This document shows positions 1 to 6,484 of a stretch of DNA of 6,484 nt, piece by piece (position 1 is the first letter of the stretch; every line of letters starts with the position of its first letter). Under the pieces are notes generated by a model. The model had not been told where the DNA came from, did not search any database, and saw only the letters and a program-made list of their open reading frames with translations. Where the stretch lies: contig DIYC01000126.1 in assembly GCA_002428895.1 (NCBI GenBank), positions 1 to 6,484 on the forward strand. The letters run 5' to 3'. Position numbers and translations under genes: made by a program. The stretch is from Burkholderiales bacterium UBA6064 (GTDB lineage Bacteria > Pseudomonadota > Gammaproteobacteria > Burkholderiales > Burkholderiaceae_B).

Positions 1-414
1 GGTAAGGTGCTAATCAGGAAAAACAATTATTCAGAGAAAAATGAAAAACGAGTCGCAGCTAAAAAATACCCATTGTTGATGCAATCATTCATGGCAGCAG
101 GTGAGGCATTTAAAGCAATTGACGCACCCATTCATTCAGTCATTGTTTCTTATGGTGAAGAGGGGAAACAGATTATTAACGATCTTTGTGCTGTTAATAA
201 TGACTTTAATGCAAAATCTTTTTATACCCTGCTTAAAAAGGCACAAAAATATAGCGTCAATGTTTTTCCGCATGTATGGAAACAGTTAGTTGAGGACGGT
301 GCTGTTATTGAAATTCAAGGCGAAGGTATTTTTTATTTGAAAGAACAATACTATAACAACGAATTTGGTTTGAGTGTAAAGCCTATAGAAAAAATGAAAT
401 TTAATGGTTGTTGA
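1..414 (+). CDS. cas3: Cas3 nuclease-helicase (type I-C), C-terminal fragment cut by window start
   Basis: This is the last 137 residues of a larger protein. The frame is open to base 1, so the GTG at position 7 is an internal valine codon, not a start. The fragment resembles the C-terminal end of type I-C Cas3: a segment reading IDAPIHSVIVSYGEEGKQII (fragment residues about 43-62) and a final FYLKEQYYNNEFGLSV before the tail. From knowledge of the family, the missing part should hold the HD nuclease and the SF2 helicase domains, which degrade the DNA strand displaced by Cascade. It lies directly upstream of the other I-C genes, the usual position for this gene. Unlike a fully fused operon, it is followed by a strong intrinsic terminator 4 bases after its TGA stop. 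Identification rests on recalled family sequence and on context; the catalytic domains are outside the window. Confidence 0.85.
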   Translation, partial: GKVLIRKNNYSEKNEKRVAAKKYPLLMQSFMAAGEAFKAIDAPIHSVIVSYGEEGKQIINDLCAVNNDFNAKSFYTLLKKAQKYSVNVFPHVWKQLVEDGAVIEIQGEGIFYLKEQYYNNEFGLSVKPIEKMKFNGC

Positions 415-418
415 GTTT

Positions 419-449
419 GGCATCGGCTTTTGGCCGATGCCGTATTTTT
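419..449 (+). terminator. Intrinsic terminator after cas3
   Basis: A perfect 9-bp stem, GGCATCGGC (419-427) with GCCGATGCC (433-441), has a 5-nt loop and is followed by GTATTTTT, with five T at 445-449. It starts 4 bases after the cas3 stop. On the + strand this is a good Rho-independent terminator that would separate cas3 from the cas5c operon. On the minus strand the same hairpin has no T-run. There it falls about 35 nt after the handle of the repeat-like element, where a second repeat would sit in a normal crRNA unit. Confidence 0.78.
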
Positions 450-508
450 AAGGCTTCTAAATAAAACCCTTTCTCTATTTCAATCCACGTAACATTTTAG
501 GCGTTACG
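419..508 (-). ncRNA. Candidate Cas-regulating guide RNA (CreR/CreA-like): degenerate repeat plus ψ-spacer
   Basis: Read on the minus strand, this contains a single CRISPR-repeat-like unit and one spacer-like tail. The ψ-repeat has stem CGTAAC (508-503) pairing with GTTACG (493-488), plus a possible G-U pair, and then the handle TGGATTGAAAT (487-477). The array repeat has a different, GC-rich stem but the same base pair at the stem foot and handle TGGATTGAAAC. Cas5c of this subtype cuts at the 3' foot of the stem and leaves an 11-nt handle, so the element should be processable. The ψ-spacer starts at 476 (AGAGAAAGGGTTTTATTT) and runs toward the hairpin at 441-419, which replaces a second repeat. 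Its first 18 bases match 528-511 at 15 positions. CreA and CreR RNAs of other subtypes have this architecture. The RNA itself, its ends and its function are inferred. Confidence 0.75.
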
Positions 509-510
509 AA

Positions 511-531
511 ATATAATACCCTCTCTCTGAA
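511..531 (-). promoter_or_regulatory. Predicted Cascade target (PAM TTC + partial protospacer) of the ψ-spacer
   Basis: On the minus strand TTC (531-529) is followed by AGAGAGAGGGTATTATAT (528-511). Against the ψ-spacer AGAGAAAGGGTTTTATTT, bases 1-5, 7-11, 13-16 and 18 are identical. Mismatches are at 6, 12 and 17, and the match ends after base 18. TTC is the established I-C PAM and it sits exactly adjacent to base 1. In type I Cascade every sixth guide base is flipped out of the duplex, so mismatches at 6 and 12 cost little. Such partial pairing would allow binding but is expected to be too short for a full R-loop and Cas3 cutting. The PAM end lies 1 base from the -35 box of the forward promoter. 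Confidence 0.7.
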
Positions 532-541
532 ATTGACTTAA
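513..541 (-). promoter_or_regulatory. Possible promoter of the guide RNA
   Basis: On the minus strand TATTAT (518-513) is a good -10 hexamer. Seventeen bases upstream is TTAAGT (541-536), a poor -35 with 3 of 6 matches. Transcription would begin near 507-504, inside the first arm of the ψ-repeat stem, which may cost one or two base pairs. The promoter overlaps the predicted Cascade target, so the guide could also repress its own synthesis. The same bases read forward as a perfect TATAAT (512-517), but I see no -35 for it. Support is modest. Confidence 0.35.
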
Positions 542-561
542 TTTTCGTTTGTGCTTACTAT
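533..561 (+). promoter_or_regulatory. Sigma-70 promoter for the small ORF and cas5c operon
   Basis: TTGACT (533-538, 5 of 6 to consensus) and TACTAT (556-561, 4 of 6) are separated by an optimal 17 bp, placing the start site near 568. The transcript would have about 24 bases before the small ORF at 592 and no obvious terminator before cas5c. It is the best forward promoter in the interval and lies directly beside the predicted Cascade target, so bound Cascade would block RNA polymerase. Confidence 0.6.
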
Positions 562-591: not shown

Positions 592-693
592 ATGTTGAAA
601 TTAGCAGCAGATTTAGTTAAGCAAATTCGATTGTTACAGACAGATAGATTTTACGTACTTTTGCTCTGCCTATTGTTATTTGTTTCATTTTAG
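592..693 (+). CDS. Small 33-aa hydrophobic protein, candidate CreT-like toxin or leader peptide
   Basis: An ATG at 592 opens 33 codons ending in TAG (691-693). A strong SD, AGGGG (582-586), lies 5 bases before the start, and a promoter ends about 30 bases upstream, so this looks like a real gene. Eleven of 33 residues are Leu. Residues 1-19 are a possible amphipathic helix (K3, K10, R13, R19, with D7 and D18); residues 20-33 (FYVLLLCLLLFVSF) form a short membrane-like segment at the C-terminus. I recognise no family. Its position, controlled by a promoter that the adjacent ψ-spacer targets, is that of creT in CreTA modules, and short cationic-hydrophobic peptides are common among type I toxins. 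Alternatives are a leader peptide coupled to cas5c translation or a chance ORF. The hydrophobic tail and SD are seen; toxicity is inferred. Confidence 0.6.
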   Translation: MLKLAADLVKQIRLLQTDRFYVLLLCLLLFVSF

Positions 694-719: not shown

Positions 720-1424
720 ATGAAAAATCAAATTAGTTTTAAATTGTGGGGTAAATATGCCTTATTCAGTGACCCCGTGACAAAAGTCGGCGGCGAAAAG
801 TGTTCTTATCATATCCCAACTTATGAGTCTATTAAAGGGGTGCTTAAGTCAATTTATTGGAAGCCTACGTTGATCTGGTATGTGGACAGGGTTCGGGTTA
901 TGAAGTCAATTCGTACACAGACAAAAGGTGTTAAGCCTTTATTGTGGAATGGTGGCAACAGTTTAGCAATTTATACTTTTTTACATGATGTTGAATATCA
1001 AGTTGAAGCGCATTTTGATTGGAACTTTCATCGACCTGAATTAGAAAAAGATCGCGTTGAGGGTAAGCATTACAACATCATCAAGCGAATGCTAGAAAAG
1101 GGTGGTCGTCAAGATATTTTTTTAGGTACACGAGATTGTCAGGCTTATGTGGAACCATGTGAGTTTGGCGTGGGTGAGTCACCATACGACAAATTGCAGG
1201 AATTAAGTTTTGACTTCATGTTTCATGGTTTTGATTACCCAGATGAAACGGGTGTACCTGAGTTGCATAGCCGTTTCTGGAGGGCGAAAATGACAAATGG
1301 GGTCATCACATTTCCTCGTCCGCAAGATTGTGATAACAAGACTTTTGTTCGAAAAATGTCGGTTAAGCCATTTGGCCTTGATGATAATTTGCTTGGCGTT
1401 GTGATGGAGGAGGCTAATTTATGA
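720..1424 (+). CDS. cas5c: Cas5c (Cas5d), crRNA-processing endonuclease and Cascade subunit
   Basis: The 234-residue RAMP protein cuts pre-crRNA in type I-C, which lacks Cas6, and caps the 5' handle in Cascade. With the ATG at 720 the residues fall at Tyr46 (SIYWKP), Lys116 and His117 (EGKHYN), the same numbers as the catalytic Y46/K116/H117 reported for Bacillus halodurans Cas5d. This supports that start over the in-frame TTG at 714, which would overlap the AAAGG SD at 709-713. Other family blocks are HFDWNFHRPELEKDRVE (98-114), IFLGTRDCQAYVEPCEFG (133-150) and FMFHGFDYPDETG (166-178). The length is normal. Its stop overlaps the cas8c start (ATGA). The same enzyme should process both the array and the ψ-repeat unit upstream. 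Identity is very secure; the motif numbers are counted from the sequence. Confidence 0.96.
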   Translation: MKNQISFKLWGKYALFSDPVTKVGGEKCSYHIPTYESIKGVLKSIYWKPTLIWYVDRVRVMKSIRTQTKGVKPLLWNGGNSLAIYTFLHDVEYQVEAHFDWNFHRPELEKDRVEGKHYNIIKRMLEKGGRQDIFLGTRDCQAYVEPCEFGVGESPYDKLQELSFDFMFHGFDYPDETGVPELHSRFWRAKMTNGVITFPRPQDCDNKTFVRKMSVKPFGLDDNLLGVVMEEANL

Positions 1425-3397
1425 GTTGGTTATATCGGTTATATCAAACTTACGAAAAAGCACTCAAGTTGCCAGATTTGCCTGAAGACCAGCAGCTTAT
1501 GTCAATTAGTCACACTGTTCAAAACGCACATATTAATATTGTGCTTGACCAAGATGGAAACTTTAAACGGGCACAAGTCCTTAAAAAAACACAAATTGTG
1601 TTGCCTGCCACAGAAAGTTCTGCTGGCCGAAGCAGTAATGAGGCACCACATGCTTTGGCTGATAAATTGCAATATGTTGCAAAAGATTATGCTGAATTTG
1701 GTGGTAAGAAAAATGCTTATTTTTCAAGTTATCAAAAACAGCTTGCCCAGTGGTGTGCCTCAGAGTTTACTCATCCGCAGATTGTGTCAATTCTTACTTA
1801 TGTCAATAAAGGGGATGTAATTCGTGATTTGGTTGAAGCCAATATTATTCATTTGAATAATAATGGGAAATTGCTAAGCAATTGGCCTGACGACAGTAAA
1901 ACTGCACCGGTATTGTTTACTGTTTTGCCTAAGGAGGGTGGGCAGCTAGACCAAGGTTCTGCCCTTGTGTGTTGGTCGGTAGAGCGAAGCGATGGCTATT
2001 TAAATGCTGATACCTGGAAAGATGCAAGCGTACAGCAAAAATGGATTGATTACGAAGCATCTAAAATTGATTCTAAAGGTTTTTGTTTTCTGTTGGGCAT
2101 TCAAACAGCAGTTGCTAGCAATCACCCTTCAAAAATTAGACATTCAGGCGATAAAGCTAAATTAATTTCTGCGAACGATAATTCTGGTTTTACTTTTAGG
2201 GGCAAATTTTTTGAAAGTGAGCAGGCGTGTACAGTTAGTTTTGACGTTACTCAAAAAGCCCATAATGCTTTGCGTTGGCTAATTAAAAGACAATCGGTTC
2301 GAAACGGTGACCAAGTGATTGTGATCTGGGCAATCTCTGGAAAGTCGGTACCTCCTGAAGTAGCTTTTGACCCTTTAAGTTTGGATGAGGATTTAAGTGA
2401 TGATGGTAATGAAGTCGTTGAATCGCCTACTAATCAGGAAGGCACGTTAGACTTAAGTAGTGATTTTGGGCAGCGTGTTGCTTGTAAAATAAGATGCAAG
2501 CTTAAAGGTTATTATCAGAGCTTGGGTGCCACAGAGCAGCTCTCTATCATGGCAATCGACTCCGCTACACCAGGCAGAATGGCGGTCACTTATTATCAAG
2601 AGCAGTTAGCAAAAAATTATTTTGAGCATCTTTATGACTGGTACGAAAATTTTTCGTGGTATCAGCGGTATAACAAAGAACAACAAGTTGATGGTAAAAA
2701 GAAAGATACAAAATTGATTTGGCCAATCGTGCCCCCTTCACCATTTAGTATTGCGCAGGCAGCTTATGGTGATGTTCTTAAAAGCCAAGATACATTAAAG
2801 AAACAGCTTTATTTAAGAATATTGCCATGTATCGCAGAAGGAAAAGCATTTCCAAAAGATATTGTTGATTCATGTGTTGCCAGAGCCACTAACCCAAATA
2901 GCGGTGAGCATTGGGAGTGGGAACGCAATGTAGGCGTTGCATGCGCATTGTATCGTGGCTATTTTAGCCGACATCCCGATCAAAATAAAAGGAGAAAATT
3001 TGAGATGGCTTTAGATGAAACTAATGATAATCGCAATTATTTGTATGGACGGTTGTTGGCGGTGGCGGAGTGTTTAGAGCAAAAGGCACTTTGGCTCTCA
3101 GACGAAAAAAGAGCAACAACGGCTGAACGTTTTATGCAGCAATTTTCTGAGCGACCTTTTTCAACCTGGCGAAATATTGAACTTGCATTAGCGCCGTATA
3201 AGCGTCGTTTGCAAAACAATGGTAAGTGGGGTGGATTTTTGACAAATCGAGAAACTGAAATCACAGAGATAACTAATTTATTTGGTAGGCAAGATTATTG
3301 TGATGATTCGAAATTGACGGGTGAGTTTTTGCTTGGTTACCATGCGCAAAAAATGAGTTATAAAAAAGAAAAAAAATCAGCAGAAGCAACTGAATAA
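1421..3397 (+). CDS. cas8c: Cas8c (Csd1), large subunit of I-C Cascade
   Basis: The 658-residue protein is the large subunit that recognises the PAM and helps recruit Cas3. It fits the family by its start MSWLYRLYQTYEKA, a block around residues 230-262 with NHPSKIRHSGDKAKL and NDNSGFTFRGKF, and a helical C-terminal region with RLLAVAECLEQKAL. Residues about 314-343 form an acidic, Ser/Asp-rich linker typical of this protein. It is somewhat longer than many Cas8c proteins of about 570-620 residues. The start overlaps the cas5c stop by ATGA and has a very strong SD, GGAGGAGG (1406-1413), 7 bases upstream. The last 130 codons also carry an internal start for Cas11c. The gene is followed by a 54-bp gap before cas7c. 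The PAM role is from the family, not visible here. Confidence 0.95.
   Translation: MSWLYRLYQTYEKALKLPDLPEDQQLMSISHTVQNAHINIVLDQDGNFKRAQVLKKTQIVLPATESSAGRSSNEAPHALADKLQYVAKDYAEFGGKKNAYFSSYQKQLAQWCASEFTHPQIVSILTYVNKGDVIRDLVEANIIHLNNNGKLLSNWPDDSKTAPVLFTVLPKEGGQLDQGSALVCWSVERSDGYLNADTWKDASVQQKWIDYEASKIDSKGFCFLLGIQTAVASNHPSKIRHSGDKAKLISANDNSGFTFRGKFFESEQACTVSFDVTQKAHNALRWLIKRQSVRNGDQVIVIWAISGKSVPPEVAFDPLSLDEDLSDDGNEVVESPTNQEGTLDLSSDFGQRVACKIRCKLKGYYQSLGATEQLSIMAIDSATPGRMAVTYYQEQLAKNYFEHLYDWYENFSWYQRYNKEQQVDGKKKDTKLIWPIVPPSPFSIAQAAYGDVLKSQDTLKKQLYLRILPCIAEGKAFPKDIVDSCVARATNPNSGEHWEWERNVGVACALYRGYFSRHPDQNKRRKFEMALDETNDNRNYLYGRLLAVAECLEQKALWLSDEKRATTAERFMQQFSERPFSTWRNIELALAPYKRRLQNNGKWGGFLTNRETEITEITNLFGRQDYCDDSKLTGEFLLGYHAQKMSYKKEKKSAEATE
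3005..3397 (+). CDS. cas11c: Cas11c small subunit from an internal start in cas8c
   Basis: Type I-C Cascade needs a small subunit that, in studied members, is translated separately from an in-frame start inside cas8c. Here Met529 of Cas8c (ATG at 3005) begins MALDETNDNRNYLYGRLLAV and would give 130 residues, about the size known for Cas11c. The sequence AAGGAG (2989-2994) lies 10 bases before this ATG, an SD that has no reason to exist inside a coding region other than internal initiation, although the Lys-Arg-Arg codons there also constrain it. The product should be a helical bundle that lines the Cascade belly and contacts the non-target strand. The spacing of 10 is slightly long. I am fairly confident because position, length and SD all agree. 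Confidence 0.8.
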   Translation: MALDETNDNRNYLYGRLLAVAECLEQKALWLSDEKRATTAERFMQQFSERPFSTWRNIELALAPYKRRLQNNGKWGGFLTNRETEITEITNLFGRQDYCDDSKLTGEFLLGYHAQKMSYKKEKKSAEATE

Positions 3398-3451: not shown

Positions 3452-4303
3452 ATGAGTCTAAGTAAAAAAATTGATTTTGGAATGATTATTAATATAAAAA
3501 ATGCTAACCCTAATGGTGATCCATTAAACGGTAACAGGCCGCGCACTGATTATGATGGTAAAGGAGAAATTACTGATGTTTGTTTAAAACGTAAGTTAAG
3601 GGATCGTTTGCAAGAGGCAGGGCAATTTATATTTGTGCAATCTGACGAAAAGAAAATTGATGGCATGACGAGTTTAAAGAATCGAGCAGAAAGTGAACAG
3701 TTTGGTGTTGGAAAAGATGTTTTTAACCCCAAGAAAACAAGTAAGGATGAGGCAGTAAAAAAGCTTTGTCAAAAATGGTTTGATGTAAGGGCTTTTGGGC
3801 AGGTTTTTGCATTTGGAAAAAGTGACGATGCGGCAGGCGTATCGATTGCAATTCGTGGCCCCGTAACTATTCAATCCGCTTTTAGTATTGAACCTGTTAG
3901 CGTAACCAGCACGCAAATCACGAAAAGCGTAAACAGTGAAGGTGATGGTAGCAAAAAGGGTGCCGATACAATGGGTATGAAGCATCGGGTTGATAAAGGG
4001 GTGTATGTGGTTTATGGCGCGATCACGCCACAATTAGCTGAGCGTACGGGTTTTACAAATGAGGATGCTGCAATTATTAAAAATTTGCTTCCAAAATTAT
4101 TTGAAGGAGATGCTTCTTCAGCACGTCCTGAAGGTTCTATGTCGGTGAGTAAGCTTTTTTGGTGGGAGCATAACTCAAAGGCTGGCCAATATTCATCAGC
4201 TAGAGTACATTCATCGCTCAAAGCCAATGCGGATGGTAGTTACGATGAAAAATTGATAATGAGTTTGGATGGGCTTAAACCAGAAATTATTTCAGGGTTC
4301 TGA
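3452..4303 (+). CDS. cas7c: Cas7c (Csd2), crRNA-binding backbone of I-C Cascade
   Basis: The 283-residue RAMP protein polymerises along the crRNA spacer to form the Cascade backbone. Family blocks are NANPNGDPLNGNRPRTD (17-33) followed by GEITDVCLKRKLRD (38-51), DVRAFGQVFAFG (111-122), RGPVTIQSAFSIEPV (135-149), KHRVDKGVYVVYGAI (177-191) and KLFWWEHNSKAGQYSSARVH (234-253). The length is normal. The start is set by the SD GGAGA (3440-3444), 7 bases before the ATG. It stands 54 bp after cas8c, a gap in which I see no terminator or promoter that I would defend, so it is read as part of the same operon. The end runs into cas4: the TGA at 4301-4303 lies 4 bases before the likely cas4 start. Identity is very secure. 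Confidence 0.97.
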   Translation: MSLSKKIDFGMIINIKNANPNGDPLNGNRPRTDYDGKGEITDVCLKRKLRDRLQEAGQFIFVQSDEKKIDGMTSLKNRAESEQFGVGKDVFNPKKTSKDEAVKKLCQKWFDVRAFGQVFAFGKSDDAAGVSIAIRGPVTIQSAFSIEPVSVTSTQITKSVNSEGDGSKKGADTMGMKHRVDKGVYVVYGAITPQLAERTGFTNEDAAIIKNLLPKLFEGDASSARPEGSMSVSKLFWWEHNSKAGQYSSARVHSSLKANADGSYDEKLIMSLDGLKPEIISGF

Positions 4304-6425: not shown

Positions 6426-6484
6426 GTCGCGCCCCCCGTGGGCGCGTGGATTGAAACAGACAATTCAGCGTCGTAAGCGCCTCG
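6426..6484 (+). CRISPR. Start of type I-C CRISPR array (first repeat and partial first spacer)
   Basis: The 32-base repeat at 6426-6457 has a 7-bp stem, CGCGCCC (6428-6434) with GGGCGCG (6440-6446), a 5-nt loop and the 11-nt handle TGGATTGAAAC (6447-6457). This is the usual I-C repeat form, cut by Cas5c after the stem. The first spacer starts at 6458 and its first 27 bases are present before the window ends. Only one repeat is visible, so identity rests on the repeat sequence and on its place after cas2. I do not recognise the spacer's origin. Confidence 0.93.

Follow-up and report, generated by a model that had tools for sequence, protein, structure and literature searches.

CRISPR-derived regulatory elements have reportedly been described by Shmakov et al. 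(2023, NAR) as stand-alone repeats whose guides are directed to cas promoters or cargo genes. Guides of the CreR kind are named for types I-B, I-E and V-A, with I-C not among them in the accessible part of that source (PMC13131331). The CreTA element of the Acinetobacter I-F system fills the gap between cas3 and csy1, has a mini-ORF divergent from creA, and gives approximately 7-fold repression, according to the available portion of the paper (PMC10097628). CrePA is reportedly released by anti-CRISPRs (PMC12737573). Here we describe a guide element in a type I-C cas operon, together with its recurrence in other I-C loci.

Guide element between cas3 and cas5c

The window, by which we mean the whole stretch of 6,484 nt analysed, is the entire contig G000:C79. 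It belongs to an assembly of 2.32 Mb in 177 contigs that is 85% complete. The window carries the subtype I-C genes cas5c, cas8c, cas7c, cas4, cas1 and cas2 and a single repeat (Table 1). The earlier note on this DNA had not recognised the first ORF, which encodes the end of Cas3. Contig C64 of the same assembly holds the remainder of Cas3, which is 55% identical to residues 3-698 of the L007 protein. The guide element thus lies between cas3 and cas5c of an apparently complete I-C system. The internal start in cas8c at 3005 is presumably the Cas11c start expected in I-C. The last bases of cas7c (4269-4303) are shared with the longest ORF for cas4, whose true start may be further down.

Table 1. 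Positions of the features in the window
Feature	Positions	Strand	Basis or remark
cas3, 3' end	1..414	+	54% identity to L007 Cas3 residues 704-820
Intrinsic-terminator-like hairpin after cas3	418..449	+	read on the minus strand, guide positions 36-58, the place expected for a crRNA 3' hairpin
Guide tail, from compared stretch to 3' hairpin	442..459	-	sequence reading
Guide bases 1-17	460..476	-	sequence match
5' handle, 11 nt, TGGATTGAAAT	477..487	-	sequence match
Degenerate repeat hairpin, 7-bp stem	488..508	-	7/7 pairs; position relative to handle as in the real repeat
Second promoter-like match, GTAACA-17-TATAAT	489..517	+	-10 box within target
Target (protospacer) of guide	512..528	-	match, shuffles, assembly pattern scan
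PAM TTC	529..531	-	adjoins target
Predicted sigma70 promoter, TTGACT-17-TACTAT	533..561	+	4 nt from target to -35; offset shared with L007, L029, L058
33-aa hydrophobic peptide, candidate toxin	592..693	+	homologues in L058, L038, P0121
cas5c (crRNA processing and Cascade)	720..1424	+	TIGR01876
cas8c	1421..3397	+	TIGR01863
In-frame internal start (ATG) within cas8c	3005..3397	+	GGAG upstream; read from sequence
cas7c	3452..4303	+	TIGR02589
Real I-C repeat, handle reference	6426..6457	+	sequence comparison with handle

A lone-repeat guide matches a site beside the operon's predicted promoter, and this observation is confirmed. The handle GTGGATTGAAA is identical to that of the operon's real repeat at 6426-6457. 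The guide AGAGAAAGGGTTTTATTTAG (minus strand, from 476) agrees with the target AGAGAGAGGGTATTATATTT (minus strand, from 528) at 15 of 18 bases; the match that the note had claimed was recovered on direct comparison of 476 downwards with 528-512. The TTC PAM said to adjoin the target was found at 531-529, and the first two mismatches fall at guide bases 6 and 12, as had been stated, with the third at 17. The distance of 35 bases given for the target is approximately right from guide base 1 to the far end of the 17-nt match, but from start to start it is 52. At the guide's own locus, the place of the PAM is taken by AAT.

In a shuffle control over the 700 bp upstream of cas5c, which excluded the handle match, 4 of 5000 dinucleotide-shuffled guides scored as well as the real one. 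The assembly (85% complete) was also scanned with the PAM and guide bases 1-16, leaving bases 6 and 12 open. Only this site matched with two or fewer mismatches; two other PAM-bearing sites had three mismatches each.

A repeat-derived hairpin and a handle are present outside an array, and the guide is partly complementary to the predicted cas promoter region next to a PAM, as in CreR. The identical, regularly spaced repeats of a canonical array are absent: within three mismatches, the assembly holds only the repeat at 6426-6457, which sits at the end of the contig. In stem length, as in its spacing from the handle, the hairpin equals that of the real repeat. Folded alone, the repeat hairpin of the window is no better than many shuffles (z = -1.31; 0.07 in L029). 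Folding is far better for the 94 nt from 508 to 415, terminator hairpin included (z = -4.93; 0 of 200 shuffles).

Recurrence of the module in I-C loci with an open gap

We gathered Cas5c relatives from named genomes (the best 80 of 305) and from further genome sets, which overlap and differ in their E-value limits (3 of 60, 10 of 369, 10 of 395, 24 of 237, 6 of 268, 7 of 108 and 1 of 2). Rows were dropped if they had identical 200 bp upstream, less than 100 bp upstream, or a Cas5c match beginning after residue 5. This left 102 distinct I-C loci including the window, 97 of them with a recognisable cas3 end; the others are L038, L053, L125, L137 and L138. In these loci cas3 usually abuts cas5c. 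The gap is below 60 bp in 83 of the 97, 60-199 bp in 6, and at least 200 bp in 8.

All eight loci with a gap of at least 200 bp have a guide/target pair (seven by the automatic rule, L034 by a later test), and none was found in the 89 loci with a shorter gap. Besides the window, these are L007, L029, L031, L058, L065, L127 and L034. Each of the seven has a stand-alone handle with 10 or 11 of 11 bases and a guide that fits a site close by, in the layout of the window and with other sequences, which supports the earlier note's reading of a CreR/CreA-type guide and shows the conservation in related loci that it had called for. Six of these loci have a TTC PAM; the seventh, L065, has TTT, or TTC if the register is moved by one. 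A handle-free scan for TTC-flanked pairs was run on L007 to L131. Among the matches listed (handle score of at least 5), the guide loci had 10-11 of 11 handle bases and the others at most 7.

In L034 the handle upstream of cas5c is exact, and no 17-nt match was found at short range. A longer comparison (24 nt within 2 kb, leaving out bases 6, 12, 18 and 24) gave a target matching at 17 of 20 bases; this test was chosen post hoc for the sole exception, and the automatic rule alone finds the pair in 7 of 8 wide-gap loci. The score was reached by 0 of 5000 shuffles and by 1 of 3000 random genomic 24-mers. When the longer test was applied to all 13 handle-like stretches (10-11 of 11) of the 102 loci, L034 came out on top with its 17 of 20. 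The loci that lack a counted pair contribute five of these stretches (L011, L072 twice, L125 and L137), which scored 9-12. The same test gives L065 only 11 and the window 14, where the matches are short or, in L065, there is no TTC in that register.

The near-handles in L011 and L072 lack a 17-nt match. In L137, a handle-like stretch at about -152 relative to cas5c (a more divergent cas5c, of about 56% identity) has no matching TTC site, the best being 12 of 20. L125 (G1001) carries two degenerate repeats from -215 to the cas5c start, the second reaching into the cas5c start codon; it was left uncounted, as its contig ends too early to show a target. The gaps of 106-183 bp in L024, L116, L056 and L131 contain no guide/target pair, and those of L024, L056 and L131 resemble inverted or dispersed repeats by eye.

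Across the seven pairs compared over guide bases 1-17 (L034 left out), 8 of 12 mismatches are at base 6 or 12 (P = 1.2e-5). The value is 6 of 9 without the window (P = 1.6e-4), 7 of 10 without one member of the related pair L065/L127 (P = 2.7e-5), and 5 of 7 without the window and that one member (P = 3.9e-4). L029 has no mismatch at either base. The guides of L065 and L127 are identical at 16 of 24 positions and differ at 1, 5, 6 and 12 within bases 1-17. Their targets carry the matching change at 1, 5 and 12, which keeps the pairing in both loci, and base 6 is unpaired in both. The earlier note had expected covariation that skips every sixth base. This holds for base 6, but base 12 is paired and covaries. 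Target-only changes at 13 and 17 cost each locus one pair. Because guide and target covary with those of L127, the register of L065 (12-nt handle, PAM TTT) is settled. This evidence comes from the one related pair of loci.

The geometry is regular. The distance from the target to the best -35 box, 4 nt in half of the eight loci (Table 1), is 11 nt in L031, L065 and L127. The 7-bp repeat stem is fully paired with different letters in the window, L007, L058 and L031, and is poor in L065 (4 of 7) and L034 (5 of 7). A clear hairpin follows 23-36 nt after the guide start in seven of the eight loci, a count made with no shuffle control; the hairpin listed for L031 is weak.

The module is gained or lost repeatedly across the Cas5c tree. 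The tree covers 100 of the 102 loci. On it, the module label needs 7 changes, at least 4 of them forced by starred branches; shuffled labels need 7.8. Pseudoalteromonas rubra S2471 (L058) has the module in a 340-bp gap, and in strain S2599 (L050) the gap is 32 bp and holds no module. No Cas5c relatives were found in the scan of viral contigs, where a degenerate pattern gave a single match, L134.

Predicted promoter, cargo and proposed switch

The number of promoter-like sites in the window, 2 against 1.6 expected, is not above that in shuffles. Since the P values of single promoters are weak (0.026-0.29), the argument for the promoter rests on its regular offset from the target. A terminator-like hairpin follows cas3; hence cas5c and the genes after it may depend on the promoter at 533-561. 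With no terminator found between the peptide ORF and cas5c in the window, this promoter would drive both.

The small peptide with homologues, placed between the targeted promoter and cas5c in an otherwise closed gap, is absent from the earlier note. By eye, a Shine-Dalgarno-like AGGGG precedes it at 582-586. Members of the family lie directly upstream of cas5c in the window (33 aa), L058 (40-48 aa) and L038 (41 aa), where the contig begins too close to cas5c to reveal a guide. A protein database search with three peptides gave one further homologue, P0121, which is close to that of L038; a search with two peptides gave none. No homologues of the L058 peptide were found in plasmids and none of the window peptide in phages. 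L134 was not among the matches of a peptide-profile scan of the collected loci that included it, and a DNA pattern for the peptide core had no match when run on the window.

None of 20000 shuffles reaches the score of the window peptide against that of L058. A nine-codon core, picked for its conservation, has 8 codon differences, 7 of them silent. Along the full set of 32 ungapped codons there are 7 synonymous and 24 non-synonymous differences, and second positions changed least (10 against 21 and 24). Codon pattern and similarity together fit a translated hydrophobic peptide and are not proof of one. That the loci resemble each other in amino-acid sequence favours a peptide as the product; the codon changes are equivocal. 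The peptide is probably toxic, as judged from its size, its hydrophobicity and analogy only.

Other loci carry different ORFs behind the targeted promoter, of 63 aa in L007 and 50 aa in L029. L031 has a ParD_like protein of the antitoxin type there (PF11903; -237 to -55 relative to cas5c), with no visible partner gene before cas5c. In L034 the guide/target pair surrounds an Abi_2 gene (PF07751; -1782 to -542) that is interrupted and lies in two pieces.

We propose that the element is a switch that combines autorepression with CreTA-like addiction through a Cascade-loaded guide, a reading to which we assign a probability of roughly 0.75. The minus-strand element would be a crRNA-like guide gene. 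Its RNA, once transcribed, is predicted to be processed by Cas5c and loaded into I-C Cascade. Cascade would then park on 512-531 without cutting, likely blocking the adjacent predicted promoter. A guide match that ends near base 17 fits binding without cutting and is too short for ordinary cleavage. The promoter is predicted to drive the 33-aa peptide, cas5c-cas8c-cas7c and the rest of the operon. As long as Cascade works, the peptide and the cas genes should be kept at a low level. Loss or inhibition of Cascade, or its titration by other crRNAs, would lead to more Cascade and more of the probably toxic peptide. Judged from the sequence, then, Cascade likely represses both its own genes and a small hydrophobic peptide that is probably toxic.

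The guide might instead serve only to regulate the cas genes in the manner of CreR, with the peptide no toxin, for example a membrane partner of Cas proteins, or never made. L065 and L127 speak for this, since there one targeted promoter lies ahead of both the guide and cas5c, and the stretch between these two contains no convincing ORF. For the same reason a toxin is not a general part of the module. The lack of a terminator from the peptide to cas5c in the window also suits plain autorepression, as does the excess of amino-acid-altering over silent codon changes along the whole peptide. However, an ORF of 33-63 aa is found behind the targeted promoter in the window, L007, L029 and L031, one of 40-48 aa in L058 and the interrupted Abi_2 gene in L034, and homologues of the window peptide occupy the same place. 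We regard regulation of the cas genes alone as less likely than not.

A decoy repeat RNA (Racr-like), or an ordinary self-targeting spacer, would block or attack the system. Lone repeat units carried in viral genomes have been described as inhibitors of the host's CRISPR (PMC11656645), but the present element is inside a cas operon and its guide is matched to neighbouring DNA with a PAM. A match of this length would also be too short for ordinary cleavage, and both variants are very unlikely. We reject the remnant of a decayed CRISPR array with a chance match as scarcely credible: the degenerate repeat and the 4 of 5000 shuffles that reach the window score would suit it, but the handle-free scan, the shuffles, the tie to an open cas3-cas5c gap, the same geometry in eight loci and the L065/L127 covariation stand against it.

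If the combined switch is true, there are I-C systems that both regulate and guard themselves, and the peptide represents a new candidate toxin family. More tentatively, and with rather less than even confidence, we suggest that the cas3-cas5c gap is an I-C cargo slot, in which a self-derived guide makes Cascade restrain a swappable killer whose release would mean arrest and a boost of Cas. The killers in the slot would be membrane mini-proteins that form a new family, an Abi_2 protein and other small proteins. Anti-CRISPRs or loss of Cascade would then trigger cell arrest and raise Cas production.

Comparison with known systems

Type I-C, to our knowledge, lacks cas6, and searches around cas6 would therefore miss I-C modules. 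The term I-C was absent in a term search of the main text of the CreTA and CreR papers PMC12737573, PMC9458426, PMC8501985 and PMC10097628, and no I-C guide of this kind was found in titles or abstract openings among the matches listed. Priority for such a guide cannot be claimed.

With the CreR guides of types I-B, I-E and V-A, the present element shares a partial match to the cas promoter, and L065 and L127 fit that class directly. With CrePA it would share a protein product restrained by Cascade, which here is proposed (PMC12737573). CreP typically has a KilA-N domain, whereas the window peptide has no match to Pfam, NCBIfam, PHROGs or PADLOC families.

The differences from the Acinetobacter I-F CreTA, as far as the accessible text of that paper goes (PMC10097628), begin with the subtype: here it is I-C, with Cas5c in place of Csy4. 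There is one degenerate repeat followed by a plain hairpin, whereas CreTA has two repeats. CreT is described as a small toxic RNA with a 33-bp ORF, in contrast to the 33-aa hydrophobic peptide with homologues found here. In the same text (PMC10097628), the shared features are a gap between cas3 and a Cascade gene, occupied in a minority of loci; a guide divergent from a mini-ORF, with a PAM-flanked target between them; and a repeat hairpin that is kept while its sequence drifts.
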